A DNA stretch of 49,712 nucleotides, taken from assembly GCA_027604005.1 (NCBI GenBank), contig JADGJT010000136.1, positions 1 to 49,712 of the forward strand, read 5' to 3'. The stretch comes from Dinochytrium kinnereticum. Taxonomy: Eukaryota; Chytridiomycota; Chytridiomycetes; Chytridiales; Chytridiaceae. Shown piece after piece: positions 2,190 through 42,740 of the stretch. Made by a program: the position numbers and the translations under genes. The notes beneath the pieces are model-generated. The model was not told where the DNA came from. It did no database searches and worked only from the letters and a program-made list of their open reading frames with translations. Every line of letters begins with the position of its first letter. Position 1 is the first letter of the stretch.

Positions 2190-5100
2190 ATTCACAGAAT
2201 TATTGTTGTCAAAAAACGTCTGCCCAGCAACCTCATACTTAACATAAAACTGCCGAATCGAAGCAACCGGCTGTCCAAAATTCCAAAGCTCATAGGTCGA
2301 CGTAGCCCCGGGATAAGCCGACCGATAATTCGCTTTCACCAAATTTGTTGCCGACCATACGCCGTTCAAATCTTGGTAAAGCACGCTCACCACCTAGCGC
2401 GAACAAAAAAAGAAATAAAAAGGAAGAAACATAAATAAGTAACAAACAAAAAAAAATCAGCAGCAACGCGAAGAAACTAAAGGAGAAACTAAGGGAATAG
2501 GAAAGAAAACAGAAAATTAAAGAAAGGATAAGAGCAAAACCCTATGACAGACCTTCTGAAATGCAATGTTCCTAACCCCGATCTGCCCACCAAGCACCCC
2601 ATTTTGATAACTAAACTGAACCACTTGAACGTTCTTCGTTGGGATCGGAAGAGGCGCGGGAGTTGGAGTAACTGGTGACGGTGCCTTTTTTGGTTTTAAA
2701 CCAAACGATGATGTCGGCAAAAGGGTAGGAGGCAGATGATAATTAACAAACTAATACAAACTAATAAAAGGAAAGTTTCTTACCAATCCAGTGACATAAA
2801 ACTTCCCCTCGTTATTGTCAATAAATGTCTGCCCAATATCGAGAGCGTTATAACTAACTGTTTACCCCCCAAAAAAGTGAGCGCATTAAAGGGTTACAAA
2901 TATCATCTCCCATCATCATCCTCCGACGAAAACGAAAAAAAGGGGGAATATGACAGAAATAAAATTATAGAGCAAAAAATAATTGGAAACCAAAAGCAAA
3001 CCAAACAAACCATAAAACGATACCACCCCCCCGAAAGCCCCAAAAGTCCATTTTTCCAAGCTGCCATCTTCATTCAAGGGTCCTGAATAAGAAACCACGA
3101 TATTCGTCGTGCTCCCTGATGCTAAAGTGGCAACAATCTGAACCCTCTTATTGTAACAGAGGTTTCGGACTTGGACCGATCCAGAAAGGTAGCTATCTTG
3201 GAAGGCAAAGGAGATGAGGTTGACATTTCCTGTTAATGGTGGCGTTGGGAGAAGGGTGGTGATTGTCGTTAAGGGAGGCACCGTAGAAGTTGGAGGAGTG
3301 TCAGTTGGGACAGTGATACTGGAAATAGAGGTGGGGTCTGCTGGGCCGGTGAAAGTTGTAATTGTTGTGGTCGTAGTGGTGGCGATGGTAGCGGTAGTAG
3401 TTCGAGGAGCGATCTGATAGTTAAGATGTTATTCATAATAGAAAATAACAACAAAATGTCCAATAAAGCACTAAACAACTTAACGATAAAAGAAAATCCT
3501 CTTTACATTTACAGGAAACCTGGCCCCCCCATTATCATCAATGTAAGTTCTCGCAGTATCAACCGCCTCATACGTTACTAAAGAAAAAAAGAAAGAAAAA
3601 TGGATTGCACGGTAAACACTATGAAATCCATAGCGAAACTTAATGGTAGAAACAAAGAGAACCTGTAAACGAGACCCCCGCAGCAGGTCCACTAAACGAC
3701 CAAATCTCTAGCCTATTATTCGACGTGACAGCCCTCGTATACCTCGCATTAATTGGCACCCCCACTCCATTCCCCCTGGAGTCAAAGAACCGCACTATCA
3801 CCCTCTTAGTAAACGAATAATTGACAACTTGCACAGCCCCCGTCAAAACCCCCGTCGCCTCCTCAATCCCATACCCCAAAACGCTAACGTCAAAACTCGT
3901 ACCCCTAACCATCCCCCAAAAAGCGCACCTATCCTCAATAAAATTCTCAACCTCCATTCGAATCCCCGTTGAAGTCGGAAGGTTCAGGTACATTTGTTCA
4001 CCGCCTCCATTTGCAGTTCCAATCGGTGGGCTATACTGCGACCAAGGTTTGTTAATCATTCCTGATCCGGGTTGGCCGATAGTGGCAAAGGATACCCAGA
4101 AGAAAATCATGGCGCGGCCTAGGGATTGTTCGGCTTGGGAGAGAGAGTTAAGGGACCAGAGGAGTTCGACGTCGAGGCTATGATAGGCTCCGTAGTTTAG
4201 ACCAGGTGTGTTGCCACCTGGAGTGAAGTTTGGGCCACGCTAGAAACGTACAATGTGCATTGAGATAAATGAAGGGGAATATTAAGACGGGGGTAGAAGT
4301 GAGAAAAGAGGTGATGTTACTGACTTGATAGTCAAGACGGTATTTATAGACCGGAACTTTGGATCGAGCATATACGTCAGCAAGGTTCCGAACTTGGCAC
4401 GTGTACTTGTAATTGCCATAGACATCAGCGGCAGCAGCAAAAACGCTAGGGTAATTTGCTTGCGGGTAATACGTCGTAATCTGTATCAGTATTTTAAGTT
4501 AAAAGCAAATACTTTAAAGAAGAAGAAAAAATGGATGGAAAGGTTAAGAGCAGAAACCTGATTCGCGTCAGTATTCGAGAGTCCAAAAAGCGGTTGAAAT
4601 TTGTTCTGGATCCAGGAAGTATAGCCATTTGCAACATCCTTATTTACGAAAACCGTTCCCTATAATTTAAACGATAGAAAACCGACCATGAGAATAGGAG
4701 GGGCAAAAAAAAAAAAGGAAAACAGGATCAAAAAATCATACCTCATTCGAATTTGATCCCACCAAGATAGGCACCCGACTGAACGCCCCAACATCTAAAG
4801 CTTTTCCAGGCTCAATATTAATGTACGTCCCATCCACATACGGTCCAAAAGCATAATTATTGTTAATAGCAGCGTCCGCCAAATTCGACAGTGTGAGGGC
4901 ACTCAATCCGCGAAGACAAGCCACTTGATCAACAGATGCCGCACATCCAGAGTTTTGGAGAACCTGATCAGTGAATTTGTAGGTATCCAGACGGGGGCTC
5001 GAGGTTGGCGAACCGGATTGAAGAATCGCGCGTGAAAAGAGCTTTTGAGTGCCGCTTTGAGCTATGAGGTGCATTCCAACTGAGGCTGGTAGTTCAGGAG

Positions 5101-14481: not shown

Positions 14482-15374
14482 CTACAATTCCGTATGTGTG
14501 CGTGTGGGCCCAGTTGTATCCTTCGTCTTGAACGTCGTTGAAGTCACCGGAATATCGGCCGTAATTGGGGCTCCCAACGAACTTACAGCCGTTGGCTTGA
14601 AACCTTCACCTCCCACAGCAGTCGACGTGGGCTCCACCACCACATTAGCCCCAATATCCTTGCTGTAAATGTTGACCTTTTGGAGAATGTATTGGTAGAT
14701 ATCGGTTGGTTCGTGTTCGCCCATATATTCCTCAATGTATTGGCCGTTGTGGTAGAGGTATAGAGAAGGGTAGGCGTCAGCCTTTTTAGAAGCGCACCAT
14801 TCTTTTTTTTGAAAGGGCGGAAGGTTAGGAAGTGACTGTGTTAAGTAAGGAAAAGGGAGAAGGTCAAGGACAATAAACCAACCATCCACTTCCGTGCAAT
14901 CAACTTTTGCAATGTTGATGTTCTTGTTAAGGAGACCGTCTTCCAAAAATCGCTTTTGGACACCCAACCAGCGCGGGGAGAGTCTTTTCAAAGGAGTCAG
15001 GTGCTTCGAAAAAAAGAACACATCCTTTTCACAACAAACCTTTTACAGAACTTGCACCATCTTCAAGAAAAACAAGTCGACCCTTAGGTTAGAGGGATGG
15101 GGGTATCCAAACCAACGAAACCTTACCGAACACCGAAGAAGATCAACCAGGTTCCAGATTGAATGCGAGTATCAAAGTCATTCTGGTTCAGATGCCAGAT
15201 TTGCGCGTCGGCGGCTCTGGCTCGTTCATTAATTTCCTAGTTTTCGAGCACCATGATCAGAGACCGAGTGTTTCGAGCCGGCCTTACCTCTGGCGTGAGC
15301 TTCCGGCCTTGATCCGCCACTGCGACGGCGACGAGTGTGGAGACAATCAGGAGGAGAAGGTGACCGCAGCGCAT
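14482..15374 (-). CDS. ER-lumenal thioredoxin/PDI-like protein ending HTEL
   Basis: Exons (minus): 15374-15288 (signal peptide MRCGHLLLLIVSTLVAVAVA), 15236-15127, a 21-nt exon 15060-15040 carrying WCKFCK, 15003-14883, and 14801-14482. The CxxC motif, followed by HLTPLKRLSPRWLGV, NINIAKVDCTEVD and ADAYPSLYLYHNGQ, forms one thioredoxin fold of PDI type, which oxidises or isomerises disulfides of secreted proteins. The C-terminus is HTEL, a variant of the HDEL/KDEL retrieval signal. About 205 residues. One junction is not resolved: the CxxC exon ends in phase 2 while the next clear frame begins in phase 0 at CAC (15003), so that boundary or the base count nearby needs checking. The gene begins 57 bp downstream of the dynamin stop on the same strand. 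Confidence 0.8.
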
Positions 15375-15431
15375 TGAAACAATTTTTGTTACACACTTTA
15401 TTCTGAATACAGCCAACCTCTATCACAGAAA

Positions 15432-17998
15432 TCACATCCCAAACTCATGAAGTGCGCGCCAAACGTTTTCAAGCCGCGTCCGCTGCTCCTGCAACGCCTT
15501 CCTCCTTTCAGCAACAAACCGATCCTCTTCAACCATCGACGCAACAGACGCCGCGTCTTTCTCAAGAACACCCAGCCGCGCCACCAGCTCCTTCTCAAGC
15601 CCCTCTCCAATCTTGGATAAGAAGTGGAAGTCAACGTGCATGGGGACGTTATCTCCCAATCGCTTGAACGCCAATCTAAAATACGCATCAGAAGCCGCCA
15701 TCACGTGCAGAATTTCATCATCATCAGGGTTGTCGCGAAGCCTTGCAAGGTCTTTTGGGGAAAGGCCAGTGTATCCTGCTTCGGCAAGAGCGGCCAGAGC
15801 CTTGTTGACGGTTTCTTGACGCTGAGTCAAAATCATGGTGGCGTTTGGGGTGTTGGATGTTGGGGCGCCTCCTGATCTGACCATCTCGAGTTGGGCTTTG
15901 AATTCGTGAAGGGCACTGGACTTTAGACGGGAGAATTCTTCGGAGCCCATCGTGAACGGGTATCGCTTTTCCATCAGAACGAGGTTGTTGACAAGTTCCA
16001 TAGTTGTGCGGTACATTTCGGATTGGAAAACTTGGATGACGAATCTATTTGTGCGGTTAGGGTCAGGAGGTAGAGATTGGAAGATTGGGGTTCTTACCGG
16101 ACTTGACCGTGGAGGTTCACAAATCTTCCAAAAATCTCCTCTGTAAGCTTTTGGATCAAAGAGTGAAGCTCATGCGACACGTTTGAAAGGCAGGCGGCCG
16201 CGTATTTATTCCACTCCTCCTGGAAGCCAGCCACGATGTAAGTGAATGCGCCATAAGGAGAGTATCCTTGGAGCTCGCGTCCCTTCTGCTGATCAATGAT
16301 TCTTCGAACATCTGAAAGCGTCAGAGGACGGTTCAGCTCTAGCCCCGGATTATCCTCCGTTGCCGATGATTGCGACTTCGCCGCGGATGACGGAACAGAA
16401 GATGAACTGGCTTTTGCACTCTCCTTTTTCTTTTCGTCTGACGAGATCGTGCTCCAGACTGATGATATTGCGGATGAGACAGATGAAGTAAGGGATGATG
16501 ATGAGGCAGCTGAGTGGCTCGTGGTGGGGTGTTTTCGGTCCAGTGCAAAAACTGGTCGGCTAGAGTAGATAGCCCTCCTAAAGGTCTCAAAATGCGATCT
16601 GATTCGCTGATAAAAGCCCTTAAAATCCTGATGTGCCGACAGGTTGTAATTGAGAACGGTGGAAAAGTGGCGGATCATTTGAAGGAGCTCAATTCTGGAG
16701 TTATCACTGAGAGGTGGCGGCATTTTTGATAACTCTAACGAGGTTGCTTGCATAACTTCTTCCGTCCTGATCTTCATATCAGGAAGGCTTGAATCTGTCA
16801 GCAAGGCGAGCTGCCTGCTCATCTCTCGACGAAGTGAGTCAATACCAAACCTGTCAATCTGGTGTCTCAGTGAAGACCAAGGTGCGTGAGAAGCGAAGAA
16901 TGTCTCCTCCTTCGCTCTGGCCTCGTCGAAACTTAATTTGCGGTCGAGGTCCGATTTGTTGGGGTTTTTAACCATCCAGTATCCTAGCTTGAGAGAATAG
17001 TTTTGACCCAGCAAAATCTGAAGCCAGCGATCATGAGTGCCGGCCTCAATGGTGTCGGGCTTTGTTAGCACACCGATAGTGCGCACGCCTATGGGGTCCA
17101 CTTCTTTAGCCATATGGACAATTGCCTGCAATGGTACTTCGTTAAACCAGAGGAACAAGAAGGACACTCTCACCTGATTATCAATCTCGTCCTTGCATGT
17201 AATAGTTCCCACAATAATGGCACGCTCATTCGTAATGTACTTTCGGACAAGATCTTGAATAAGCTCAATAAAAGGGGCATCCTCCTTTTTATCAACACTG
17301 CGAATGATCCCAGGCAAATCAATCAGCGTCAAGTTAACGCCCGCTCCTCTTATATCAACGCAAACCACGTTCTTGGTGAATTTCAGCTCGTTACTGGCCG
17401 CCTCCTTGTCTCTTGAAGCAGCGGTGCGGTCATCGAAAACAACGCCAACAAACTTGAAAGGATCCACGGAAGGGTTGAGCACCGCCTTTTGGGCCCTACG
17501 AACAGCAAGCTCGACATCATCCGGATTTCTGATCTCCTCTATGAATATGATCTCCCTTGGCGCCTTCAAAGGAGCTCCAGTAGAATCAAATTCTAAACGA
17601 AGCTTGATGGAGCATCGCCACTCCGGGTTGAACATGACGGTATCCTTTGGCGTTGCGGCATCATCGAGAACAGTCTCTGTCATGCGCACTTCAGTTACGG
17701 ACCGCGTGCAGGTTCCTTCAGCTCTTGGCAGAACAACGCCACACAGTGCCTCAATCAAACTACTCTTGCCTACACTCTGGTTGCCGCATACAACAACGGT
17801 GGGGAGGTCCAAATCCATGTGGGCGCCTGCATCCCTCATAGTGTTGACTAACTGAACCAGGCGACGGGCTCTTTCGCCGAAAGCGCTCGTTTTTAGAAAC
17901 ATGGATGGGGACATGGAGGCTGTCATTGAGCTGTGAAAGTACTCGGCCCTTCCGTACGGGCCAAGGTTGGCAGAATGGGGCAGCGTGGATGCACTCAT
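15432..17998 (-). CDS. Dynamin superfamily GTPase (Mx/dynamin-like)
   Basis: Exons 17998-17174, 17125-16098 and 16044-15432; 821 residues. The first intron is only 48 nt, a multiple of three with no stop, so it is easily mistaken for coding sequence; removing it restores the continuous motif DEIDNQAIVHMAKEVDP. The GTPase domain shows the P-loop GNQSVGKSS (residues 72-80), switch CTRSVTEVRM, DLPGII and TKPD. Middle/stalk helices follow, interrupted by a Ser-rich, probably disordered loop near residues 490-545, then a C-terminal GED-like helix (YRTTMELVNNLVLMEKRYPF and the last ~80 residues). No PH domain or transmembrane anchor is seen, which fits the fungal Mx-like/soluble dynamin group. It presumably remodels membranes by GTP-driven assembly; which membrane cannot be told. 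Confidence 0.92.
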
Positions 17999-18436: not shown

Positions 18437-19319
18437 TGCATGCCGTACCTACCCCGAGTTAGGACGGAACGCACTTGAAGCAATCAAATCTCACCGGCCA
18501 AGGCGGGCTTCAGCAGAGTATACCTTTGGAAAAGCGCTGGGGCTTTCCGCTGATGCCGAACGACTGAGAAAAAGTACCCTGAGCGAACATCCAAGTGTCA
18601 GAACTTTGCTCCCTTTGAATTCCTCCTTCCCTCCCTCCCCCTCACTCCTCTCCCTCCATTTCCCACTCGCACCCAACGGAACTAACCCAATGCAGCTCCT
18701 GAGAATCCAATTAGGCCAGCGCTGACCTTGCACTGCCAAATGGCCTCTTCGAAGGTCTCTGGCTTTTTTGGAGGCATGAAGGAAAAATGTTCTTTTGAAA
18801 TTGAGGGAAGAAAGAGCCTGAGCAGAGAGACCCCCTACAACAACCCTGAACGACCCACCTACTTAATTGCAAATGGTTGGTGGCTGTGTGCAGCAGCGTC
18901 TTTAATGGCCTCGGCCTGTTGCGGCAGGAGACAGCAGTAGACAAACAAGTAGTGAATGGGGGTCTCGTAACGCAATAAACATGCAAAGAAAACACAAACA
19001 AACGAGCTCTGCCTGTATTTGGGTGTCTGAAGCAAACTCCGCCAGGCATCTTGCTCGCGGCACCCACCCATTGGAGCGTCTCGCTACGCGTTATTTATTT
19101 TCCGTTGTCCCCCAACAAACAACTTCTCGTCTCCCAAACAAACAATTCACCAATTTTTCTCGTTTGTTTTGCTCAACCCCATCGCATGTCGACAGTTATA
19201 AAAGACCACCTGGAGAGCACGGAGCGCGTAGCTAGTTGCCCCCTCCCCTGCTCTGCTCCTCTTAGTGTCATCGGATCCATCTCCCACGACATCCTTATCC
19301 TTGATCGCTCTTATCCGTC
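18437..19319. other. Divergent intergenic region
   Basis: Lies between the minus-strand dynamin block and the plus-strand Ser/Thr-rich protein. The last ~250 bases are pyrimidine-rich and ATG-poor, as expected for a promoter and leader. No gene seen. Confidence 0.55.
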
Positions 19320-22300
19320 ATGAAGCTCACCCTCACGGCCGCCGTTGCGGCCCTGCTGCCCATGGCACTCGCGTTGCCCTTGCACGATCGAGCCTTGGAG
19401 GCTCGTGGAGAGGCTCTCACACCGTCATCGGCGACGACGAACGATTTTGTTTACACTCTTTCCTGGGGTAAGCCTTTTGTTTTGGGACTTATCCTTGATG
19501 AATGCTCACAATACTTCCAGAAAGCACAACCCTTCCCGCTACCAGCGCCAAGAAAACCAGCACAACATCTGTCGGATACACCTCTTCCGCATCCGATTCA
19601 TCCAGTGTAGCCACTTCTTCAGAGGCCTTCACTGCACCCGAGATGACCGGAGTTCCTACTTCCACGGCGCCTTCCGGAGCACCCGAGATTACTGGCGTCC
19701 CTTCTTCCACAGAGACCACCGTTCCCATCCCAACCTCCACTTATTCGGATCAACCCGAGAGCCCTTGGATCTACTCTATCACGAAAGGTTGTTCATCTGT
19801 CTTTACTTTGAACTAACATTGCAATAGATGCCTTCACAGAGCCTGCTGTCGAACAAACTAACACGCCATCTACCACAGCCGAGCCCTCCTCTACCGCATC
19901 TGCTTCTGAAGAAACAGCCACAGCCACTTCCTCTGAGGTTACTTCAACGGCACCCATTGTTGAGGAGACAGCGACAGGTACCGGCACCGTGCAAGTAATT
20001 GAGGAAACCACCACATCAGAGGCCTATGGGTTTACTTCGACTGAACCCTCTATTGAGGAGACAACAAGACCGGCGGTTCCCGAAGAGACCACGACTACAT
20101 CGGCGCCTGAGGGGACTTCGACCGCTCTTGCAATTGAAGAGACCACCATCTCAATTCCAGAATTTACGTCCATCGTGACCACCGTTACCGACGAGACCCT
20201 CACCAACTCGGTTGCTGAAGAAACCACTACGGCTACTACACCTGAGGGGATCTCGGCTACATCGACCGCGCCAGATATTGAGGAAACCACTGTTCCCGAT
20301 GAAACAACCACCACCCCTGTCGTTGAGGAGGCCACTGCTACTTCGTCCATTGAGCCCACCTCGACCGCGTCGGCCATGGAGGAGACCACAGCAACTCTTC
20401 CTGAGGAAGTATTCACCACAACTGCCCTGGTATCCACCGATACTGCATCAGTTGTTGAAGAGACCACCACTGCCACTATGGCTGATGAAGCAACCTCTAC
20501 CGCTCCAGCTCTTGAGGGGACGGGTTCATCGTCAGTTGTGGTTGCGACAGGCTCACCTACTCCACGGACAAGCCCGACTGCACTTGGTGAGACTCAGACG
20601 AGGCAGCCTGGAGCTACATCGACGGTTGGAGAAGAAGTTAAGATGACTTATCAAAGTAAGCTTATCGGTCTATTGCTTGCCTTAACTCTAACTTTCCTTC
20701 AGTCCCGACCCCCACTCCGGCCTTTAGCACTACGCGTCTTCCAACCTTTTCTCCTACGACTAGCCCAACGGCACTCGGTGAGACTGTGACCAAACTAAGT
20801 GAGTTGGAGAACTTCTTTTCTAAACTAGGCTAACGTTGAGATTTTACAGGCACTAGCACTACCCTTGATGACCCCGTTTCGATCGAAAACTCACCTTCGA
20901 CCACCGACACTATGCCTACCGCAACCGGTGGTGCACTGGGACTTTTGAGCTCTTCAGAGACAGGGTCTCCCTCCACTGCCGCAGTGACTACCAGCACGCT
21001 CTCTCCTGCCGTAACTGGAGACTCTGGTTCGGTTGATGTCACAACAACGCCGGCCTGGAACTACAGCGTACCCACTTCATCTCCTGCTGCCACTCAATCT
21101 TCAACAGCCGTTGTTACGCCACCTGAGCTTTCGACTTTCCCGGCTTCCACCACTACGGCTGATTCCCCAATAGTTACACCATCGACCACTACGGAGGAGA
21201 CCACCACTGTTGTCACGCCACCTTCGCTTTCATCTTTTATGATTTTTACCACCTCGGCCCCGTCTTCCTCAATTCCTTTCGGTCCTACGCGTAGCCCAAC
21301 TGCTTTGGGAGAAGGACTTACAAAGTCATCGACTGGTACCATTGAGTTAGAGATTCCTACTTCAACTGTCGAGCCTTCATCTTCAGCTGTTGAAACTATG
21401 GAGGTTAATTCGGCTATTGAGACGACCACTGCTGTAGCTGCAACTACTAAAACAACTGAGGTTGTAACTTCTACCACTACTATTGCTGAAGAGGTATCTG
21501 CTTTGGCTTCGGATGCTTCCACCGAGACAGCGGCTGCCACCACGACCACGGAAGGTCCAGAGGAGACTACAGAGGGAGTTCCTACGCCCTCTAGGTCGAC
21601 CTTTTTTTACACTGTCCCTTCCATGACCACCCATGCGGTCACCACCACTGAAGAGACTTCCTCCGAGCCCACACTACCCCCAACTGCGAACCCAACGGTG
21701 CTTGGAGTTGAAGAGACTTTGACCACAACGGATGTTACTACTATGTCTTCTTCAACTGATTGCGAGTCTACCACTACGCTATTCATTCAGGGAAAGAATG
21801 TGATTCTGGTTCCTGGAGGTTCCGGAGCTGGCCTTGCGAACGCAACCACTTCTTCATCCACTATCACTACGACTACTACTGAAGAATCTTGTAAGTTTTT
21901 TGTTATTTGAAACAATGTGGCCAGTCTCTCACCAGTTTCTTCCCTTACTCTTTTCTTTGCTAGCAACTGTCATTCAGTTCACTGAGATTATTCCTGAGGC
22001 ACCTACCACCTTCTTCGACGAGCCTGAACAGACTACCTCAATCGTTGAGACAATAACCTCCACAGCCTCACCTACTACCTCTACCACAGCATCTGAAATT
22101 AGAGAGATTGATACCGAGGTTGCTTCTTCCACCATTACTGCCATTGAATTAATTCCTGAGCCGACGACCACTACTGACGAGTCTGCAACGTCGACGACTA
22201 CCAGTACTGAGGCGGAGGATGTTCCCACTACGACAACTGTGTCCGTTCTGGAGACGACTTCTACGGCCGACGCTGAGGTTTTGCCTACTACTACTACCAC

Positions 22301-23631
22301 AGAGGCTGAGATTCCTAGAACCACCACTGCTTTTGCGTCTGAGGCAACCACTACTATTAGTGCAGTTGAGTCAACTACATCGACTGAGCCCATTCCAGAG
22401 ACCACAGCAACTACCACTGAGGGAACCGCGACCACTGCAGAAATTAGTGAGACCACTGCGGAAACGACCTCACAGCCCACTACTACCACTGAGGCTTATC
22501 CCGAAGTTTCCTCTACGACGTTAGTTGAGGTCCCTGCACCGACTACTACTGAAGAGGTCATGATTGCCTCGGCCTCTTCAACGGTGGAGGCTGAGCCCAC
22601 GACCTCTACACCATGCTCAGAAAAGGTTAGCTCTGAAACTGGGACACCTGTTGTCTCTCCTCCCACCGCCACTGGAACCAAGACCGCGACTGGTATTGGA
22701 GAGTCTCTCGATGCTAGCAGCAGCTCGACGATTGTTGAAACGACCGCTGTTACCCCTCCCGAGGTTACGGCTACCAATGTTGTCGCATCTCCATCGGCGA
22801 CTTCTACTCCCTGCGACCACGAGACCACCACGAGTACCGAGGTTATTCCTACCGCCACCTCGACGATTCCCGCTCCTCCGTCGATATCGCTACCCCCGAC
22901 CACGAATGTAGAGGAGGAGGGTACTGCTACGGCCGCTGTTGTGACTGATACTGAGACGACTACTGAGCAAGAGTTCACTCGGCCTCCGGCTATGGAGACT
23001 GAAACAACGACGACTGCGGAGGCGATTGCGACTACAATTGAGGCTTCTGCTTCGGAGACATCAGTTCCTCCTTCTTTGACATTGCCGCCTACTACCGCGG
23101 TGACTCCCACTGCTACAACTGCGGGATTCTACTACACTTGGTCCGCTGGTAGCCCTGGTGAGTCTCTTAAACCTTTAGCAACCTTCAGACAAAAAAACAA
23201 TGCTAAACTAACCTTATTTTCTCTTCTAAGCCCTCCCCTCCATATCTCCCGAAAAGCTCGTCCACACAGACTGCGCAGTCAAAGCCAGACTCGTCGGTAA
23301 CTCTAAGTTCCGTGGTATCGCCCGCGGCCAATCTCAGTACCAGATCACTGTCTCCTCCAAATCCCGAGTCGACGCCTATGTGGTCCGAACTTCATTCGAC
23401 TCTCCTCAAGCGTACATCTCTTCGTTCGCTAGGGCCAACCTCCTTTCAGGGTCTCTTAACAACCCCTCGAGGAATGTTTATGAGTTTGGTGCAGCTTCCC
23501 CGGATAGGTTTGAGTCGCTTCAGGGAGGACAGAGCCATACTTTCTTGGTCGGTGTGAAGGCGACGGCGGATGCACCATTGAGCGTCAGAGCGCCTGTTGT
23601 GGAGGTTTCTTGCATGGCTTTGGCTGCTTAA
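19320..23631 (+). CDS. Large secreted Ser/Thr-rich (mucin-like) wall or surface protein
   Basis: Exons 19320-19467, 19521-19787, 19828-20655, 20703-20798, 20850-21890, 21964-23157 and 23231-23631; 1,324 residues. The signal peptide is MKLTLTAAVAALLPMALALP. About 1,100 residues are Thr/Ser/Glu/Pro-rich (EETTT, TTTTE, TSTAP), the typical substrate of heavy O-mannosylation in fungal wall proteins. A motif of the form SPTALGE recurs near exon ends (TSPTALGETQT, TSPTALGETVT, RSPTALGEGLT, and NPTVLGVEETL). The last exon encodes a non-repetitive ~130-residue domain with two Cys (VHTDCAVKARLVGNSKF ... VVEVSCMALAA). There is no hydrophobic GPI-type tail, so wall retention may depend on that domain. 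All six introns are phase 1. Strong open frames on the other strand are by-products of the repeat composition. Confidence 0.88.
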
Positions 23632-32683: not shown

Positions 32684-34053
32684 TTTACTTCACAGTACTG
32701 TATCTACTTGGTCTGTGGTTGATTATGATATGTAATTTGGAACTGTTTAATTTTGAAAGGCTGAAGACACGTCCTTTAATAGTAATGAATGCAAAGTCCA
32801 ATTTATTTGATTTTGCCCAAAGGTATCTGGAATGCCAACACACAAGAGCGCCACCGCTTGGTGCATCAGTAGTTGTTAACGGCCGAACTTATCCTGTTAC
32901 AACGTTGTTGCGCGAGTCACATGAAGAAAAATCAACCGAATAGCAAGTAATTCTCTTGTTGCTTCATACGGCAAACACCTTCACGCTTGACTTTATTTGC
33001 TATTTCTTATGTTGAAAGCTTTCAATCTACTTGTTGACTGTATTGATGGCAGTAAATATGAGAAACGAAGAGTTTGACGTTCGCTTGACCACTGAACACT
33101 ATGCACCATCAATTGCACATAACCGCACAAGAACTTTTGCTTTACAAGTGGGCGGGGGGGCTGTAGATGATTAGCAGCAGCTTTTGGCTCTGCAATTCGC
33201 CTCAACAAGCTCCACATTCTTTTTTATCTTCGTGAAATTAGCTGCAGACTTCGATGTCCCTTTTCAAGTCGGAAAGTGTTGGAATTAAATACCTACACCG
33301 AGCCAACTTCCATGTACTATTTTTCGAATTCGATGAGTACTGGCATGTTTGGTCTCCGAGTTGTGTTTAGAGAATGTATCTTATCAATTGGCGGCAAACT
33401 TCATCAACTATTGCCCCTTGCCCTTCTGCTGCTCAAAATGGCGGAAGTAAGACTTAATTTCAATTGTGAGCCATGACTTGGTCTCGATACTGTCACCTTG
33501 AGGATTGATTGGCCATCTACTCCAGAGGATTTGTTTGAGATTCGATGGTTGCATACTTAAATGACCAACCCCTGTATCTGTATCATCCATCAATTAAGTA
33601 GATGCCTCGTGAATAGGGGAAAGAAATATCCTCGGCATCGCCATCTCCACTACTTGGCAATGAACCACCATATTGTTATTGAAGCCATCTCCTGCTCAAA
33701 CAACAGCGTGAGTGGAAAAGGCGGGAGGTGGGCAGGAGGAGGCTGGACGAATTTCAAGTCCAGCTCAGCCTTCCTATCCTGCCATTCATCCCACTGCGGA
33801 TTATCATTCTCGCCATGAGCGCCATTGCGGAAAAGCATTCAATGCATCTGCGCCACCGCTAAGACATATTCCTGCCACCTTCCCTGCTTACCCTTCCCTG
33901 TCCTATATTGGAAACCAAAACCTTTAAAGTAAACCAAGACTGCACTCCCGCTCCGCCTCCCTCAACCCATCACACTTCCTCTTAAAGCACCACCAACTCG
34001 ACTCGCATCCAAACGCATCCACTCCAACCAGGACCCATACCATTCACACCACC
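32684..34053. other. Divergent intergenic region, 1.37 kb
   Basis: Between the C-CAP gene (minus) and the first tetraspanin (plus). The last ~120 bases are C-rich and ATG-poor, a plausible leader. Scattered short frames have no recognisable features; I see no gene. Confidence 0.55.
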
Positions 34054-34961
34054 ATGCGCGAGTCAAAGAAGATCTTCTCAAGGACATTCCTGGTCATCAT
34101 CAACCTGCTCGCGTTCTTGACGTCCATTGGTGTCATCATCCTTGGCGCCGTCGTCATTAAATCCGCAAAGAGTGCCAGCGAAAAGTCATCCAAAAACCTT
34201 AACGAAAGCGCTGTCGATATCTCTGGCGTTGAGACATCTGTCTACAACCTTCTCCGTGCGATTGGCATAACTGTAAGTATATCACTTTTCCTACTGGTAG
34301 GCAGCAAGCAGGGTCTAACATGTCAACTCTTCGCCTTTTTCCTTGACTAGTTGATTATTTACGGCTCGTTTATTCTGCTCACGGCAACCTGTGGATTCTT
34401 TGGAGCCTGCACTCGCCGCAGTGGTCTTCTTAGTTGCTACATTTCATCACTCGTCTTTGATGTCATCCTTACCCTTGCGGTCACTATCTACACCCTTGTT
34501 GTCCTCATTGGCAAGATGAATGAATGGGACAAGTACACTGTTGTGGACTGGAACGGATTCAACAATGCCCAGAAAGACTACTACCAGGTATTTTCTAGGT
34601 TCCCTACAGGCTCTGCAGCTCCTTATCGCCTCGAGAGATTAATAGAAAATTCTTTTACCTTTAGCTTTCCTTCGGCTGCTGTGGATTTGACCAGAAGAAC
34701 AACCTTCCTTATCTCGGAGAGTCTCACTTTGTCGATTCCAACAACTGCACCACCGCTGCTATCGAAGCCAAGACTTACCTTGGTTGCCAAATGGCGGGAC
34801 ACAACTACTATTACATGCTCACCATCTACAATGCCATCGCTTCCTCAGTCGTTATGGCTATCCTATTGGCCTCAATTGGTGCTGCCCACCAAACTCGCAA
34901 GCGTGAATTTGTTGAACCTGCCAGCCAACCCATGGTTGCTGCTGCTGATCAAAAGTTCTAG
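34054..34961 (+). CDS. Tetraspanin-like membrane protein, copy 1
   Basis: Exons 34054-34272 (219 nt), 34351-34587 (237 nt) and 34665-34961 (297 nt); 250 residues, both introns phase 0. Four membrane segments: FLVIINLLAFLTSIGVIIL, LIIYGSFILLTATCGFF, YISSLVFDVILTLAVTIY and a last one around AIASSVVMAILLASIG. The large extracellular loop before the fourth contains the tetraspanin CCG motif (FGCCGFD) plus two further Cys (NNC and GC), a four-Cys loop. Tetraspanins organise membrane microdomains with partner proteins. The start MRESKKIFSRTFLVI is identical to that of copy 2, except Ile/Val just after. Confidence 0.88.
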
Positions 34962-35808
34962 GACGGCTTCGAGCGGTTTTTGGTGTTCTGGTTGGCGCTG
35001 TATTGTGCTGTTGATTAGAGCCTCCTGTTCTATTCCTTGTTGCATAGTTGTTGTTTCTATCGGCGTCCTTCAGCAACTTTCTTTCGATTCTTTTACCTTT
35101 GGTTTTGGGAGCTTGGTCAACTGTTGCTCGCGTCTTAACTTTATTTCTTTTGTTTTTTGGTCTTATCTTGTTTCCTTATCAATCAGCACCATTATTGTTT
35201 TCTACCACCCTTGGATATATCCTTGGTTATGTTCTAGTTCTTACCCCAATCTTCTCTGTACTTAAATACACCTTCTTGATGCAGTTGTTGCATGACTTTC
35301 CGTCAAGTATGTAGTATCAAACATTATTAACGGAAGCGTTAGTTGGCTGAGAGGCAATTGATGTGGCGGGCATTATATTTACTGTAGAAAAGGATCAAGT
35401 GGCTGGGTTGTCGTCTGCTCCTATTTTACCAGCCCCAAGAAAATTAAATTCAGTAATTTGGACTACTTCCCCTTCACTCTCAAAACAAGCAAGCTTCTTG
35501 TGAGTATGCGTATGGACGGGCTAGCCTGAATGGTATCAGAGGAGGAGGAAGGGAGGAGAAGGGAGGAGAAGGGAGGAGGAGAGGAGCAGTGTCGCCTGGT
35601 CTGCTGATAGGGCTGGGGACGCGAACTGGTTTTGGTGCTTGGCATTCCAACGGGACGTCTGTCTCTGCTGAGGTCTACTTTGGCTGTTTGGTCTTCAGCA
35701 TGCATTGAGATGATAAGATTGATGAAAGACTCATCAATCTACTCACCTTTTAAAGAACAAGCTGGTTTCATCCGCCATTTAGTAACCTCCGTTTCATTTA
35801 GAATTAAC
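34962..35808. other. Spacer between tandem tetraspanins
   Basis: 3' region of copy 1 and promoter of copy 2. It contains a polypurine tract at 35538-35586 built of GGGAGGAGAA units. No gene seen. Confidence 0.6.
35538..35586. repeat. Polypurine tract
   Basis: Forty-nine consecutive purines with repeated GGGAGGAGAA units, about 220 bp upstream of the copy 2 start. Confidence 0.9.
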
Positions 35809-36763
35809 ATGCGCGAGTCGAAGAAGATCTTTTCCCGGACCTTCCTGGTCATTGTAAACTTGCTCGCCTTTTTGGCCTCTGGAGCCATCATCTTCCTTGG
35901 ATCCCTTATCCTCAGGTCGGCCAAGTCAGCCAGTGAGAAGTCAGCAAGTAACCTTAATGACAACACCATCGATGTTTCTGGTGTTCAGAGTGCGGTTTTC
36001 AACCTTCTTAGGGCTATTGCAATTACCGTAAGTGCTCCTTCGGGGATTCTCTTGCCTACTAGTTTCTTGCTTCGCTTCTGTTGACATAGTGCTAAAAATC
36101 ACCTCTTAATACCCCCTCCCCTTTGTTTTATACTGTAGTTGATTGTGTACGGCGCTTTTATCTTGTTGACGGCGGTCTGTGGATTCTTTGGAGCATGCAC
36201 CAGAAATAATGGTCTACTTGGTTGTTACATCTCGACACTCGTCTTTGATGTCATCCTCACCATCGCAGTTGCCATCTACTCGATCGTTGTCCTTGTCAAT
36301 AGAATGAAGGAGTGGGACAACTACTCCGTAACGGACTGGACCGGCTTTAACGACGCTCAGAGGGATTACTATCAGGTAACTTTTCTTCATTGGACCGTAT
36401 TACATGTTGTTTGGTTGTTGTTAGTTTTTTCCCCGGTCATCTCTCTTACCGATGCCTCTTCTGTAGCTTTCGTTTGGATGCTGTGGGTTCGACGAGAGCA
36501 ATAGCAACGCCTACACTGGCGAATCTTTCTTCCTTGAAGCCAACAACTGCACCACTGCTGCCATCACAGCAAAGACCTATCCTGGCTGCAAGCAGGCTGG
36601 TCACGACTATTACTACAGGTTTGCTCTGTATGATGGGATTGGGTCTGCTGTCATTTTGGTCATTCTGCTTTGCTGCATCAGCGCTGCCCATCATGCTCGC
36701 AAGACTTACTATAATGACTCTGCCCGTCAACCTATGGTTACTGTTATTGCTCAAAGGTATTAG
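35809..36763 (+). CDS. Tetraspanin-like membrane protein, copy 2
   Basis: Exons 35809-36027 (219 nt), 36139-36375 (237 nt) and 36467-36763 (297 nt): exactly the same exon sizes and phases as copy 1, 250 residues. Four membrane segments, CCG motif in FGCCGFDESN, loop Cys in NNCTTAAI and PGCKQAGHDYYY, and a C-terminal tail RQPMV like the SQPMV of copy 1. The two are tandem duplicates. The extracellular loop has diverged most (for example DQKNNLPYLGE versus DESNSNAYTGE), as expected if the loop sets partner choice. Confidence 0.88.
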
Positions 36764-37432
36764 TTGGGTTGTGATTAAGGGGGCGTGTGTTTGCTGGATT
36801 TGGTTCTTATCCCTGTTGATGGGACTGTGGGGGATTTGGGTCGGTCTCCTCTTCCACCATATATCTAGTTGTTCTTTCCATTGTTATTTTGTTTACATTA
36901 TTACTGTTGTTTTCTAAATACTGTTGTTTCTTTTGCATAAAGGCCGTTAAGCCTTTTCTTTTCGTGCTTGTATTGAATATATGCTATTGGTTATTAAGCA
37001 TGTTTTGCAGAGCATGCGTATTTTACATCAGTAGCTGGCCCGTATAGCCTTAAACATACCGATGGAAGTAGTCCGGGCCGTTAACCAATCTCTATCAAGT
37101 CCAACCTGGATTTATGCCTCTTATTTATTTCTGTCTCTCCTTGTTGAATGATGACCACAAATATCTGCCTCACCAAAAAAGAGCAAGAAATCATTCTTGT
37201 CCGACACCTTCAGACTTGTCACCATTTCCAAAACCTCCAAAAAACTTGCCCTCTGACTTCAGACACGCGCTTCGCGATGACAAGACACGGCTCAATATCT
37301 CCACGTCCACCTCTGCTTAAATAAAACACCTTCGTTTTCTTGCATCCATTCTTCATCGCCGTGTCTCTGGGCTGCTGCTCTTGATTTTCGAGTTTGAAGC
37401 AGGAGTATCGGTTGACACCATTTCAAGCAACG
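36764..37432. other. Intergenic region before the repeat-protein pair
   Basis: 3' region of tetraspanin copy 2, then the promoter of the next gene. A TATA-like AAATAAAA lies near 37318, about 115 bp before the ATG. No gene seen. Confidence 0.5.
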
Positions 37433-40200
37433 ATGAAGATGCGTCCTTTGCAACGATCAAACGCCTTCTTGGCCGTGATCGCTGCTCTTTTCATGGCTTC
37501 TTGTATTGCTCCTACCTTTGTTACTCCAGCCATGGCTGTTCCAACTTCATCTCCTGTGAGGTCTGCGATGTTTCATCAAGATCATAGAGCTGTTGAGTTG
37601 TCTCCAGATGATATCGACTCGACAGAGCTTGCCACTGATAAAATGAGCAATGATGAGATTGATGCGAATTCCATCGCTGAGGATGAGTTTTTCGGTAGAA
37701 TGAGGCGGTATGTACACTTCTACATTTATGAGTTGGGTCTCACTCTTTTTTCTTTGCCATTCAATTCAGATCTTTTGGAGGCTTTGGTAGAACTATGAGC
37801 CGTGGTGTCTCGCGCGGTGTCAACCGCGCCCGAAGTGGCGTTACGCGGTCGGTCAGAAAAGCTGGAAATGGTGTCAGGAGGGGGGTTGGTCGAGTTCAAC
37901 GAGGTGCCAGGACAGGCATTAATCGTGCCCGTCGAGGTGCGAGGCAGGGAATAAATAGGGCGAAGAATGGCGCCAGGAGAGGATTTAATCGAGCACGTCG
38001 AGGCGCAAGGAATGGATTTAATAGGGCTAGGAATGGGGCTAGGAGTGGATTCAATCGAGCACGTCGGGGTGCAAGGAATGGATTTAATAGGGCTAGGAAT
38101 GGAGCTAGGAATGGATTTAATCGAGCGCGTCGGGGCGCAAGGAATGGATTTAATAGAGCTAGGAATGGTGCAAGAAATGGATTAAACAAGGTAAAGAATG
38201 GCGCTAGAGGGGCGTGGAACAAGCATGGAGGATCTTTGAAAAAAGCTGGAGAGTGAGTGGTTTTATTTATTTGCTTTGAGTTTTTTTTTGCATTCGTGAA
38301 TCGTGGATTTATTGAAGATATCGTTTCGATATTGTTTTTTGTCTCCTTTTTTTCTTCTTTCCAATCTCTCCTAACATTCTGTTTGTTTATTTTTGCCTCA
38401 GGTTCGTCAAGAACAACCGAGAAGAGATGTAGGCATTACTTAATCCGAATCAAATTAACAACCTCTCTTCCCTCCTATTTTCACGTCTTCTGAATTCTAA
38501 ACACAGTCTTACCACGTAAGTCTCTGATTCCACACACGATACTCCACAATTCCCGAGACTAATACATCTTCTTCCTTTTAACATATGTGCGAATTAACAG
38601 TGGACTTAACGTGTAAGTAACTCTCTACGTGCCATCTTCCACGCATCCACCTCGAACCACAACCCCATACCACTTCTTGGAGACATCAACTCATTACTTC
38701 CTACCTGCCCCTTGAAAAAAAAACAAAAACACTAGTGCCGGAACAATGGCTGGCGTTGGCCCTGTCGGCGACTACCAACGCATGGTCCGCAATGGTATCG
38801 ACGGTAAGCCCATCAACGAAGGGACCCAAGGCGGCGGTCTCGGAGGGATGCTTGGTGGCGGCATGCTCGGAGGAGGTAAAATGGGACTGCTTGCCGGCGG
38901 ACTCGGAGCCCTCTCCAAAAGTGGGATCGTCCCAGGAGAGGCTGGAAAAGCATTAAACGTCGCGTCCGGGGTGATGGATGGAATGGCGTCTGGAGGGCCT
39001 ATGGGTGCTGTTTCGAGTGGTCTTGGCGCGCTTGCTGGCAGTGGGATTGTTCCTGGGAAAGCTGGGCAGGTGCTTAATGCTGCGTCTGGAGTGATGGACG
39101 GGTATTCGAAAGGTGGGCCCATGGGTGCTGTTTCGAGCGGCCTTGGGGCTCTCGCGAACAGTGGAGTCGTTCCTGGCCCAGGCGGTAAAGTACTTAACGC
39201 CGCCTCTGGAGTGCTGGACGGATATTCCAAAGGTGGAGCCATGGGTGCTGTTTCGAGCGGCCTCGGAGCTCTTGCCGATAGTGGAGTCGTTCCTGGCCCT
39301 GGTGGTAAAGTTCTCAACGCCGCCTCTGGTGTGATGAATGGTTTCGCAACCGGTGGACCGATGGGAGCTATCTCAAGCGGCCTCGGAGCTCTTGCCGACA
39401 GTGGAGTTGTTCCTGGACCTGGTGGTAAAGTCCTTAACGCCGCCTCTGGGGTGATGAATGGTTTCGCAACCGGTGGACCGATGGGAGCTGTCTCAAGTGG
39501 CCTCGGAGCTCTTGCTAACAGTGGAGTACTTCCTGGAAAGGCTGGTGGAATTCTCAACGCCGCTTCTGGCATCCTGGGTGCTTTCGGCGGAGGAGGGGGT
39601 GGTGGTAAGAAAAAAGGAGGTTTCTTCGGACTCTTCCTTAACGCGGATGAAGCGGTCGCCGAGTCCTTTGCGAATATGCTGGATGCTGAAGGAATTGACG
39701 CGGATGATCTTCAAACTGTGCAAGCCCTGTTCAAAGGCGCATTTATGGGATCTGACGCGAGGTTGGCGGCTATGGCAGGCGTTGAGTCTCTTGCGGAGAT
39801 GGAGGCTAACGCTGAACAACTTTCGTCAGAGGCTGTTAAGGAGTTTATTGAAAATTCTGTTAGACGCGCTGCGAACAATGCTGTGAGCATTGCGGAGGCC
39901 AATGATTTTCGACAGGAGATGATGGAGGGACGCACTGAGATGATTGATGGAGAAGCCATGGATACAGAGGAGTTTGGTGGGGATGAGGCGTTTGATGTTG
40001 ATGAGATAGACGCGGAGACGCTTATGGGAGATGAATTGGATGCTGATGAATTAGACGAAGAGTCTTACGATTCTGATGGATATAGTAAGGAGGGGCTCGA
40101 GGACACTGCGTACGAAACTGAGTACGAAAGCGATGGGCTTGACGGTGATAATTATGATGCTGATGGAGTTTTGGGGAAGGGTCTCCTTGATGACGAGTAG
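37433..40200 (+). CDS. Novel secreted acidic/cationic repeat protein, copy A
   Basis: Exons 37433-37707, 37770-38252, 38402-38428 (27 nt), 38507-38515 (9 nt), 38601-38612 (12 nt) and 38736-40200; 756 residues, all five introns phase 2. Order: signal peptide (SNAFLAVIAALFMASCIAP); acidic segment in five-residue units (DDIDS TELAT DKMSN DEIDA); dibasic site GRMRR; a cationic segment of 13 exact 11-residue repeats (type GFNRARRGARN); the spliced core NREEILTTGLNVAG then AGVGPVGDYQRMVRNGIDGK; five full plus one partial 40-residue Gly/Ala-rich repeats; a helical domain (ADEAVAESFANMLDAEG ... VKEFIENSVRRAANNA); and an acidic tail (DELDADELDEESYDSDGY). The micro-exons are supported by perfect parallel structure in copy B. 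No known family. It could be a processed cationic membrane-active peptide precursor or a structural surface protein; both are inference. Confidence 0.85.
37816..38244 (+). repeat. 33-bp tandem repeats (13 hendecads), copy A
   Basis: Thirteen contiguous 33-bp units encoding 11-residue repeats from GVNRARSGVTR to AWNKHGGSLKK, with no insertion or deletion. The central units alternate RRGARN and NGARN forms, giving a 66-bp higher-order unit and pointing to recent pairwise duplication. The array fills nearly the whole exon. Confidence 0.93.
38899..39600 (+). repeat. 120-bp tandem repeats (40-residue units), copy A only
   Basis: Five complete 40-residue units beginning GLGAL and ending GAVSS or GAISS, plus a partial sixth that runs into a glycine run and KKKGG. 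The fourth and fifth units are almost identical, so recent. The block sits where copy B goes directly from TGGGLP to its next domain. Confidence 0.93.
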
Positions 40201-40823
40201 AGATTAATAGGGCTTTTCATTCTCTTTTTAAGCTTGCTACTAAACGTGTGTTATTACTGTATGTTTTGCTTTTATCACGCGTAATACTGCAGCTGCGGTT
40301 TACTTTTTTTCTCCTTTATTATATCTGTATTGTTTTATTGTTCTATTGTTTTATCGCTTAAAATATCCACTCTTCTGGCCTACATTTTTTCATACAATTG
40401 CGGAAGCTGTGACTTCTTTTGATCGTTTTTCATCGTCTGCTCAATACCTTGGTTCTGCTGGCCTTCACATGCACATCCTTCTAAAGATCAACGCTTCTTG
40501 AATAAAAGGGCGTCCACCCTCATGCATGCTGGACGCGCTCCTCTCGCGCGTGCGCATGTTCGCCTCGTTCAACAAGAATTGGTTGGCGATGCAGCCGCTT
40601 AGAGACACTTTTAATTTCTCAGACACAAATCTTACTTGAGGGTCCTTGGGTCCGACTTTGTACTGACAATTGCTGGCTGTCTGCCCTCAGCCTGTTGAGT
40701 CGGCTCGCGCCCTTTACGCAACTTTGACGGCCTTATTAACCAGTGCTTGACCCATCTCGCATCCCCCATTCCTCCTCACCCGTCCCCTCCACCCCCCGCC
40801 GCACAGGATAATCCAACTGTGCA
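40201..40823. other. Spacer between copies A and B
   Basis: 3' region of A and promoter of B. The last ~70 bases are C-rich and lack ATG. No coding region seen. Confidence 0.55.
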
Positions 40824-42740
40824 ATGGCTGTGTCGAAATGGACTCCAGGGCTCATGCTCTTGCTGTCTACCCTTCTGCTCATCTCAACCATTCTTCCCGT
40901 CTTTGTTCCAGGTGCTTTGGCTCTTCCTGTGGCACTGCCCGCTCTTCAAAAGGAGCTTGCGCGCCCGGAGGCCGTTCAAGGGCTTCAAGAGGATAGCTTA
41001 GGGGCGAATGAGGTTGACGTTGAGGAGTTGGATGATGACGATTTGGAAGCTGATGAGATTGCTGCTGATGAATTGGGGGTTGGGGAGTTGGATATTGAGG
41101 GGTTGAACGCGGACGAACTTCAGGTTGAAGAGATGAGGGCTGAGGAGATGGCTGCTGAATCATTGAGGCAAGAGAGGTTTTGGAAAAAGCTTAAAAGGCA
41201 AGTACCTCTCTCCGTTCATTTATTTTCAATTGTTGCTCTCATTAGTACTCATCTTGTCATTACAGAGGCTTCAACCGTCTGAAGAACAAGATCAGTAATG
41301 GCTTCAAGAAGGTCGCCAACCATGTTCGAGGCGCCGTCAATCGTGTAAAGAAGACTGTTAGGGGCGCCTGGAACAAGGCCCGTGGTGCTGTCCGTAAAAC
41401 TTGGAACAAAGTCAAGAGTGGTGCGAAGAAAGCTTGGGGCCACGTCAAGACGGGTGTTCGTAAAGCTGGGAAGTAACGTATCGTTCCCTCTTCTTTGTTT
41501 TTTTTTTTTTTTTTTTTTTGTTCTCTTTCGCTTTGCATTAATTGACTTTATTCATAACGGGTTTTGTTGTATCATTCTGATATGTTTTTTGCACTTTTTT
41601 TTTGCAGATGGATTAAGGATAACCGAGAAGCAATGTAAGCCGATTTGAATGGAAGGTTTCAATCTAACTCTTTGCTCTTTATTCTCCTTTAACAGTTTGC
41701 GACAGTAAGTTATTATCATACTTCTCTTCCGTCTAGAATATCCGAAGATTAACCAATGGCTTTTACTTGACGTCCTTTTTAGTGGTTTGAATATGTAAGG
41801 CAGAGTTTTTGCACACAACCATAGAAAAAAGAAGCTTGAACTTATCCATCATTTTACTTCCAGTGTCGGTAACATAGCTGGAGTCGGCGACGTCGGGGAC
41901 TACCAAAGAATGGTCCGAAACGGTATCGCCGGAAAACCAATAGACCAAGGCACAGGAGGTGGTCTTCCCTTCCTCCAAGCCGACCAAGCGTCCCCCGAAT
42001 CCTTCTCAAGCCCCGACCTCGCATCTGACTCCCTTGACGTCAAGGACCTCGCTGGTGTAGAGGCTTCCCCTGACTTGCTGCAAGCTGAGGAGATCTTGAC
42101 ATCTGCTTTAAAGTCGAGTGAAGCCAGAATGAACGAACTTGCAAGCGATAAATTTTCTGGAGACGCGGTTAAGGCGCTTGTTGAGAATACTTTAAGGGGA
42201 GCTGCCGTTGATGCTGCTGGGGTTCTTGAGGCCCAGGGTGTTGCGGCTGAAGAGGTTGAGGTTGAGGGATTGTCACGCGTTGAAGGGCTGGATGGGGAGG
42301 GTATTGAGGTGGATGGAGTTGATGGTTCGGAGGTTGACGCAGAGGCTCTAGAGGCGGATGAGCTTGATGGCGAAACTGTCGTTGGGGAATTGGATGCCGA
42401 GGAACTTGATGGGGATTCTTTGGCAGAGAATGAAATCGAGGGTGAGGGGTATGATGTTGAAGGGGTTGGCGCGGGTGAGCTCTCGATTGATGAGGTTTCC
42501 GCTGACGGATACGCTTCGGACGAAGTTGATGCTGACGATTACACTTTGGACGAGGTTAACGCCGATGGTTATGGTTCGGACGAAATCAATGTCGACGGTT
42601 ATTCTTCAGATGAGGCGGATGCGGATAGTTATACCATGGAAGATGTGAACACTGATGAATCTCTAGCGGACGAGGTGGATGCTGATGGGTATGAGATTGA
42701 TGAGGCTCGGTCAGAAGAAGTCGGAGCTGATGAGATCTAG
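40824..42740 (+). CDS. Novel secreted acidic/cationic repeat protein, copy B
   Basis: Exons 40824-41197, 41266-41472, 41608-41634 (27 nt), 41696-41704 (9 nt), 41783-41794 (12 nt) and 41864-42740; 501 residues, all introns phase 2. The first intron is GC-AG (AAAAG|GCAAGT). Order: signal peptide (LMLLLSTLLLISTILPVFVP); eleven or more acidic pentads (EELDD DDLEA DEIAA DELGV); dibasic site KKLKR exactly at the exon end; six 11-residue cationic repeats (GFNRLKNKISN first); spliced core NREAILRHGLNIVGN then AGVGDVGDYQRMVRNGIAGK; a helical domain related to that of A (LKSSEARMNELASDKFSG ... VKALVENTLRGAAVDA); and about 30 acidic pentads to the C-terminus (DEVDA DGYAS type). It lacks the 40-residue repeats of A. 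No known family; the same functional caution applies. Confidence 0.85.
41267..41464 (+). repeat. Six hendecad repeats (33-bp units), copy B
   Basis: Six exact 11-residue units, more diverged than in A (GFKKVANHVRG, AVNRVKKTVRG, AWNKARGAVRK, TWNKVKSGAKK, AWGHVKTGVRK). Trp, Val or Phe keeps the same position in each unit. As in A, the array ends with Ala-Gly just before the donor. Confidence 0.9.
42282..42740 (+). repeat. Acidic five-residue repeats, C-terminus of copy B
   Basis: About 30 consecutive pentads of the pattern acidic - E/G - hydrophobic or Tyr - polar - small residue, with one single-residue slip. The DNA is divergent enough that the register appears to be kept at the protein level. 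Confidence 0.85.

Follow-up and report, generated by a model that had tools for sequence, protein, structure and literature searches.

Amphibian-type antimicrobial precursors consist of a signal peptide, an acidic propiece, a KR site and a cationic amphipathic segment, and their mature part is short and ends the protein. Synucleins, perilipins and apolipoproteins have 11-residue amphipathic repeats, and alpha-synuclein has a hydrophobic middle and Tyr in its tail. The silaffin precursor Sil1p joins a signal peptide and an acidic segment to strongly basic repeats and is processed at basic motifs (PMC4557024), and Kex2-processed repeat proteins (KEPs) have a signal peptide, repeats and KR or RR sites (PMC6339444, PMC7329392). 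In synuclein the 11-residue amphipathic period is accompanied by an acidic C-terminal tail (PMC6504812). In sandcastle-worm cement and the diatom proteins AC714 and AC4076, secreted chains bear strongly opposite charges and coacervation has been described or proposed (PMC11277488, PMC4220933); according to the discussion of the diatom paper, the charged domains of AC714/AC4076 "might self-aggregate" (PMC4220933). The charges of the worm cement lie mostly on separate proteins, and one form of Pc3 is called zwitterionic or a polyampholyte (PMC11277488). In the present study, we analysed two adjacent genes of the chytrid Dinochytrium kinnereticum that resemble these systems in part. They lie at 37433-42740 in a stretch of 49,712 nucleotides (the window; contig JADGJT010000136.1, C136 in our numbering), where an earlier note, made from the sequence alone, had placed a two-member family of secreted proteins. 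It is suggested, with a rough probability of 0.4, that these two diverged tandem paralogues encode secreted block polyampholytes, in which blocks of opposite charge would pair and form a charged phase at a surface, in a matrix or in an adhesive.

The pair differs from the amphibian-type precursors in that the cationic segment forms part of a larger acidic chain. In contrast to synucleins, perilipins and apolipoproteins, it has a putative signal peptide, a far higher charge and no match above the Pfam cut-off, and unlike the worm cement it carries both charges on one chain, together with periodic 11-mers and a conserved core. The RRIL/RRNL motifs and Ser-accompanied Lys clusters of silaffins are missing, and a core, a helical domain and an acidic tail are present in addition; no sequence relation to silaffins is known, and no search aimed at them was made.

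The gene models were rebuilt from the DNA, and their support is the conservation between the two paralogues. Gene 1 (37433-40200) and gene 2 (40824-42740) encode 756 and 501 amino acids in six exons apiece, with the following features.

37433..37707, + strand: gene 1 exon 1, with putative signal peptide (37433-37537), acidic propiece (37538-37693) and most of RMRR
37770..38252, + strand: gene 1 exon 2, cationic block of 11-residue repeats
37919..38183, + strand: gene 1 tandem array of 66 bp, 4.0 copies, giving a 22-residue superperiod
38402..38428, + strand: gene 1 exon 3, 27 nt as in gene 2, end of the cationic block and start of the core
38507..38515, + strand: gene 1 exon 4, 9-nt microexon, with the length and phase of its gene 2 counterpart
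38601..38612, + strand: gene 1 exon 5, 12-nt microexon encoding GLN[V], with GLN codons synonymous to those of gene 2
38736..40200, + strand: gene 1 exon 6, core, Gly-rich repeats, helical domain, acidic tail and stop
38767..38799, + strand: gene 1 core GDYQRMVRNGI
38995..39569, + strand: gene 1 Gly-Ala-Val repeats of 120 bp (40 residues), 4.8 copies, absent in gene 2
39622..39909, + strand: helical domain of gene 1 (residues 565-660), with z 11 in the comparison with gene 2
39910..40197, + strand: gene 1 acidic tail, net charge -35
40824..41197, + strand: gene 2 exon 1, with putative signal peptide (40824-40925), acidic pentad-repeat propiece (40926-41174) and most of KLKR
41266..41472, + strand: gene 2 exon 2, cationic 11-residue repeats
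41608..41634, + strand: gene 2 exon 3, 27 nt
41696..41704, + strand: gene 2 exon 4, 9-nt microexon
41783..41794, + strand: gene 2 exon 5, 12-nt microexon
41864..42740, + strand: gene 2 exon 6, core, helical domain, acidic decapeptide tail and stop
41895..41927, + strand: gene 2 core GDYQRMVRNGI
41964..42239, + strand: gene 2 helical domain, two helices predicted by AlphaFold2 (residues 279-302 and 309-333)
42240..42737, + strand: gene 2 acidic tail, net charge -62, predicted disordered

All ten introns are in phase 2, nine of them GT-AG and one GC-AG; the latter is intron 1 of gene 2 (41198-41265), and gene 1 has a GT-AG intron at the equivalent place. The two genes agree in the lengths of exons 3, 4 and 5 (27, 9 and 12 nt), and exon 5 yields GLN[V/I] in both, the differences in the GLN codons being synonymous. 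The putative signal peptides were recognised by eye from a basic start, a hydrophobic stretch and the ends AMA-VP and ALA-LP. A short isoform through retention of intron 3 was considered and dropped, because any phase-2 intron with a GTAA or GTAG donor gives the stop met there, which thus proves nothing.

Similarity between the two proteins was tested in six segment pairs, and all six exceeded 1000 of 1000 shuffles. The z score was highest for the core (28), followed by the cationic block (15), the signal peptide with the acidic propiece (15), the helical domain (11), the acidic tail (8.6) and the acidic propiece by itself (6.7). From the end of the cationic block through GKPI.EGT, 43 of 71 residues are identical, with a proportion of synonymous differences (pS) of 0.77, at which synonymous sites are saturated, and of non-synonymous differences (pN) of 0.28. 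The synonymous and non-synonymous distances (dS and dN) were 1.6 and 0.21 in the 42-codon NRE..GT part and about 2 and 0.15 in the 26 codons from GVG on. Over the core in exons 3-6, dN of 0.15-0.35 against dS of 1.6 or more indicates purifying selection; the core is held by strong selection, and the repeats are free to change. The near-identical core GDYQRMVRNGI, the related helical domain and the acidic tail claimed in the earlier note were all recovered in both genes.

The order of segments given in that note (signal peptide, acidic, dibasic, cationic, core, helical, acidic) is also correct. In gene 1 the net charge is -10 in the propiece (residues 36-87), +51 in the cationic block, +7 in the Gly-repeat region, -13 in the helical domain and -35 in the tail, +2 in total; the corresponding values in gene 2 are -24 in the propiece, +27 in the cationic block, -11 in the helical domain and -62 in the tail, -68 in total. 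Cationic-block charges were taken over residues 88-257 and 118-198, stretches that contain the boundary site as well as some of exon 3. The gene 1 protein is near-balanced in every form, with +2 at full length, -1 minus the signal peptide and +6 after a cut at RMRR, which speaks for a polyampholyte. Its sequence charge decoration (SCD) was -42 without the signal peptide (shuffled mean -1.6, z -49) and -52 after the RMRR cut (shuffled mean -1.2, z -59), and that of gene 2 after a cut at KLKR was -7.8 against +32.8 in shuffles (z -23); this segregation likewise counts for a polyampholyte. The whole pair has a single Cys, inside the gene 1 signal peptide, and neither protein has an N-glycosylation sequon (shuffling P 0.005 and 0.17).

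The cationic 11-residue repeats proposed earlier were borne out by autocorrelation. Hydrophobicity in the cationic blocks peaked at lag 11, at 0.83 in gene 1 and 0.59 in gene 2 (0 of 2000 shuffles each). In gene 1 the charge of the block peaked at lag 22 (0.58; 0 of 2000 shuffles) and reached 0.54 at lag 11, whereas in gene 2 the peak was at lag 11 (0.42, P 0.0005). The basic repeats are composed of Arg/Gly/Asn/Ala in gene 1, where Gly and Asn make up 33 and 23 of 165 residues and Arg/Phe repeats are present, and of Lys/Gly/Val/Ala in gene 2. Acidic five-residue repeats had been claimed for both genes, and this holds for both acidic segments of gene 2 (0 of 2000 shuffles) but is not significant for gene 1 by itself, in which the N-terminal segment has its best lag at 10 (P 0.17) and the tail at 5 (P 0.06). 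The best helical angles of the cationic blocks were 98.5 and 99 degrees, or 3.64-3.65 residues per turn, and the hydrophobic moment near 98-99 degrees was coherent across the whole block in both genes (0.40 and 0.55; 0 of 2000 shuffles each). In the 170-residue block of gene 1 the moment of 0.40 at 98.2 degrees has nearly vanished at 100 degrees (0.07), as expected of a strictly 11/3 stripe. At 98.2 degrees this block ranks first (0.438) of 11268 windows of 73 residues from the open frames of at least 100 amino acids in the window; the frame of the gene 2 block is too short for that list, and its moment at the same angle was 0.484.

AlphaFold2, run on gene 2 exon 6 with two sequences, returned a low-confidence model with a mean predicted local distance difference test (pLDDT) of 46.8 and a predicted template modelling score (pTM) of 0.22. 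It is mostly disordered, with 222 of 291 residues below pLDDT 50 and a disordered tail, as a polyampholyte would suggest. The predicted helices at residues 279-302 and 309-333 had block-mean pLDDT mostly of 61-72, and three further shorter ones fall in stretches of lower confidence.

The dibasic boundary sites named in the earlier note are present as RMRR at residues 89-92 of gene 1 and KLKR at 122-125 of gene 2. The only KR/RR of gene 2 lies within KLKR, at the boundary between acid and cation, and exactly one KR/RR in all, placed within the first 10 residues, occurred in 1.2% of shuffled gene 2 blocks (P 0.012); the lack of any further KR/RR in the block (0 against 2.1 in shuffles) is not significant alone (P 0.07). 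In the gene 1 block RR/KR is rarer than in shuffles (6 against 11.9, P 0.012), RXRR starts at residues 144, 166, 188 and 210, that is 22 apart, and a lone later RR stands at 645-646. A putative protease was also looked for, and the genome gave four matches to the Kex2-type P-domain on three contigs. The frame of the best match continues, by eye, into a transmembrane-like stretch, and a P-domain followed by a transmembrane stretch is the arrangement of Kex2.

The proposed release model, with the cationic block held neutral by acidic stretches until a cut sets it free, is only half borne out. The boundary site is plausible and a Kex2-like gene is at hand. Between the cationic block and the acidic tail of gene 2, however, KR, RR and KK are absent (none after residue 180), and a boundary cut alone would leave a chain of -50 in which block and tail are still joined; the model of a removed mask and a freed peptide is thus incomplete on the C-terminal side. 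KK pairs occur inside the gene 2 block at residues 121, 139, 153 and 179, and these weaker sites could free cationic pieces, Kex2 being described as cutting KK to a lesser extent than KR/RR (PMC6339444). The charged structural surface polymer offered in the same note as the alternative fits at least as well as release.

If the proteins are secreted block polyampholytes, the signal peptide would route both through the endoplasmic reticulum, and a Kex2-like protease would probably cut RMRR and KLKR in the Golgi, removing the N-terminal acidic propiece that would until then stop the cationic block sticking within the secretory pathway. After the cut there would be mainly a single chain of cationic block with hydrophobics every 11 residues, core, short helical hairpin and acidic Tyr-bearing tail, to which gene 1 would add its Gly-rich repeats. 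Cationic and acidic blocks could then pair within or between chains into a dense charged phase, perhaps as a cell coat or as a glue for attachment to a substrate, while the cationic stripe would stay free to hold anionic surfaces. The lack of KR/RR/KK between block and tail in gene 2 was counted for such a one-chain polyampholyte. Further support comes from the Arg/Phe repeats of gene 1 and the tail tyrosines of gene 2 (residues 406, 426, 436, 446, 456, 466 and 486), which are 10 residues apart from 426 to 466. The Kex2-like P-domain protein also fits, ten tyrosinase-family matches in the genome are circumstantial support, and charge-segregated proteins have been linked to coacervation in one report (PMC7503639).

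Several points weigh against this reading. According to the same report, near-complete charge segregation favours pairing within rather than between chains (PMC7503639). Gene 2 at -50 after the cut is disfavoured for self-coacervation alone, and with an SCD of +39 before the cut it would need cleavage at KLKR and probably a cationic partner too. Cutting at the RXRR sites of gene 1 or the KK pairs of gene 2, which lie inside the blocks, could break the chain, and the strict 11/3 hydrophobic stripe exceeds the needs of a plain polycation. Neither the Gly-rich repeats nor the conserved core finds an explanation here, and secretion and a material role are read from the sequence. The Tyr/Lys-rich diatom protein AC3362 turned out to be non-adhesive (PMC4220933). 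A bolder form, in which a Golgi cut would activate a fungal underwater glue or coat (a self-coacervating one-chain polyampholyte with a synuclein-like 11/3 sticky helix and the core as nucleation or cross-linking point), appears to us unlikely.

The main rival is a prepro-form of a cationic membrane-active polypeptide of antimicrobial type, silenced by its propiece until a Kex2-type cut frees the amphipathic block onto anionic membranes. We consider it possible, if somewhat doubtful. A putative signal peptide, acidic propiece, dibasic site and cationic amphipathic block do stand in that sequence, the coherent moment and the top rank of the gene 1 block agree with it, as does the lone KR at the gene 2 boundary, and the KK pairs could cut the gene 2 block into pieces. 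But no KR/RR/KK parts that block from the core and the -62 tail, the boundary cut alone giving the -50 chain, and the richness of the gene 1 block in Gly and Asn disfavours a stable helix. With 73 and 165 residues, the blocks are also long for membrane-active peptides. The same stripe would serve a secreted synuclein-like binder of lipids or polyanions, with an 11/3 amphipathic helix on the anionic surface and the acidic tail as a brush in solution, which we regard as improbable. The best moment angle fits it, and the 11-residue amphipathic repeats come first and the acidic tail last, as described for alpha-synuclein (PMC6504812). A weak Pfam Perilipin match (E 0.084; 12.3 bits, cut-off 33) lies in the gene 2 block and points the same way but is below cut-off and maybe reflects periodicity only; a phage tape-measure chain in the PDB matches gene 1 residues 93-569 (E 0.00089), seemingly through a common 11-residue rhythm. 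Against such a binder stand the putative signal peptide, which speaks against a cytosolic protein, the much higher charge and the lack of any sequence relation seen; no synuclein family was among the Pfam matches listed. The readings overlap, and the 11/3 stripe would be useful to several of them.

The RXRR spacing of gene 1 suggests another product, for this gene and not for gene 2, namely a Kex2-processed repeat protein that frees 22-residue Arg-rich peptides (GARNGFNRARN...RARR units) from a signal-peptide protein, in a genome with a Kex2-like gene. KEPs are defined by at least three near-identical repeats parted by KR/RR/KK and making up at least 15% of the protein (PMC6339444). Gene 1 gives three 22-mers if RXRR alone is cut and two if every RR is cut, and its repeats amount to 8.7% (three 22-mers) to 11.6% (four) of the protein, so that KEP membership was rejected; the rarity of RR/KR in its block also argues against release, and gene 2, with its single KR/RR and none between repeats, has no such unit. 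We hold this reading to be very unlikely. Silaffin-like templating of mineral or polyphosphate deposition seems more remote still. The Sil1p precursor does combine a signal peptide and an acidic domain with basic repeats, whose RR-containing motifs are missing from the mature peptides (PMC4557024), but by eye the pair has no RRXL motifs and no Ser-accompanied Lys clusters. Among the points against templating is also that we know of no biomineral in this fungus. That the models are an artefact, made of exons from separate genes or of non-coding low-complexity DNA, is scarcely credible. Absence among database proteins of fitting length and exons of merely 9 and 12 nt could suggest it, but the frames are open throughout, exon lengths, phases and microexons are common to both paralogues, and the core has the selection described above; the separate-genes reading was rejected on these grounds.

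In searches of the genome (22.4 Mb in 558 contigs) with three protein queries, we found these two genes and nothing else. The protein database gave no match at E<=10 among 4458 candidates in one search and the 8000 best-sharing in another, candidates being restricted to 0.55-1.75 times the query length and by shared words; it does hold chytrid proteins, the D. kinnereticum dynamin among them. No relative was seen in 27 pattern stretches of viral contigs or in 70 of prokaryote contigs. With no Pfam match above cut-off, the claim of an unrecognised two-member secreted family holds within the searched data. Orphan status is provisional because the only fungal genome searched as DNA was its own, and low-complexity proteins may escape annotation, so that the database result is no proof of absence in other chytrids. 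The literature found under the species name concerned another protein family, none on either gene was found, and a search on tape-measure repeats returned no paper.

Some matches were set aside. The Pfam Decapeptide repeat region (PF25296) on the gene 2 tail reached 27.3 bits against a cut-off of 45 (E 3.3e-6), CCDC90-like and DJ-1 matches were both below cut-off, and in the PDB the best E was 0.72 for gene 2 and 0.35 for its block with the core. The gene 2 tail also matched (best E 1.6e-7) an acidic pentad-repeat frame of 532 amino acids at 3336-4934 on the - strand of contig C394 (L024), which is cut off by the contig edge. The match may come from composition; the part of the frame present on the contig shows neither core nor cationic block, and in this genome search the matches listed at E<=0.001 did not include the gene 1 tail. 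The frame has no Pfam match and contains four ARGGGHYL cassettes, 32, 32 and 43 residues apart, with acidic spacers between them.

Secreted repeat-rich proteins easily escape annotation, and neither gene was among the database proteins of fitting length. The core together with the exon pattern may be useful as a handle for tracing this family through other chytrids. Should the polymer reading prove true, the pair would represent a fungal coacervate made of one chain, and a candidate protein for coating or attachment in zoosporic fungi.

Elsewhere in the window, the dynamin-like protein HDU67_001455 of D. kinnereticum maps in four aligned pieces with zero mismatches, the gaps being read as introns, which assigns the window to this species (Chytridiales). 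The dynamin and a thioredoxin-like part that are joined in it lie at 14485-17914 on the - strand, residues 781-959 (P0001) mapping to 15248-14485; the join is perhaps an annotation fusion, and the same join is seen in a Phlyctochytrium bullatum protein (P0003). A long mucin-like Ser/Thr-rich region runs across several open frames at about 19305-23631 on the + strand, and the one frame examined (20843-21910) has no Pfam match. Directly upstream of the charge-block pair, two tandem tetraspanin-like genes lie on the + strand at about 33928-35265 and 35611-36790. Pfam Tetraspanin matched single exons of the first (E 0.0006) and the second (2.7e-9), the second alone above cut-off. Two tandem duplications thus lie next to each other here.

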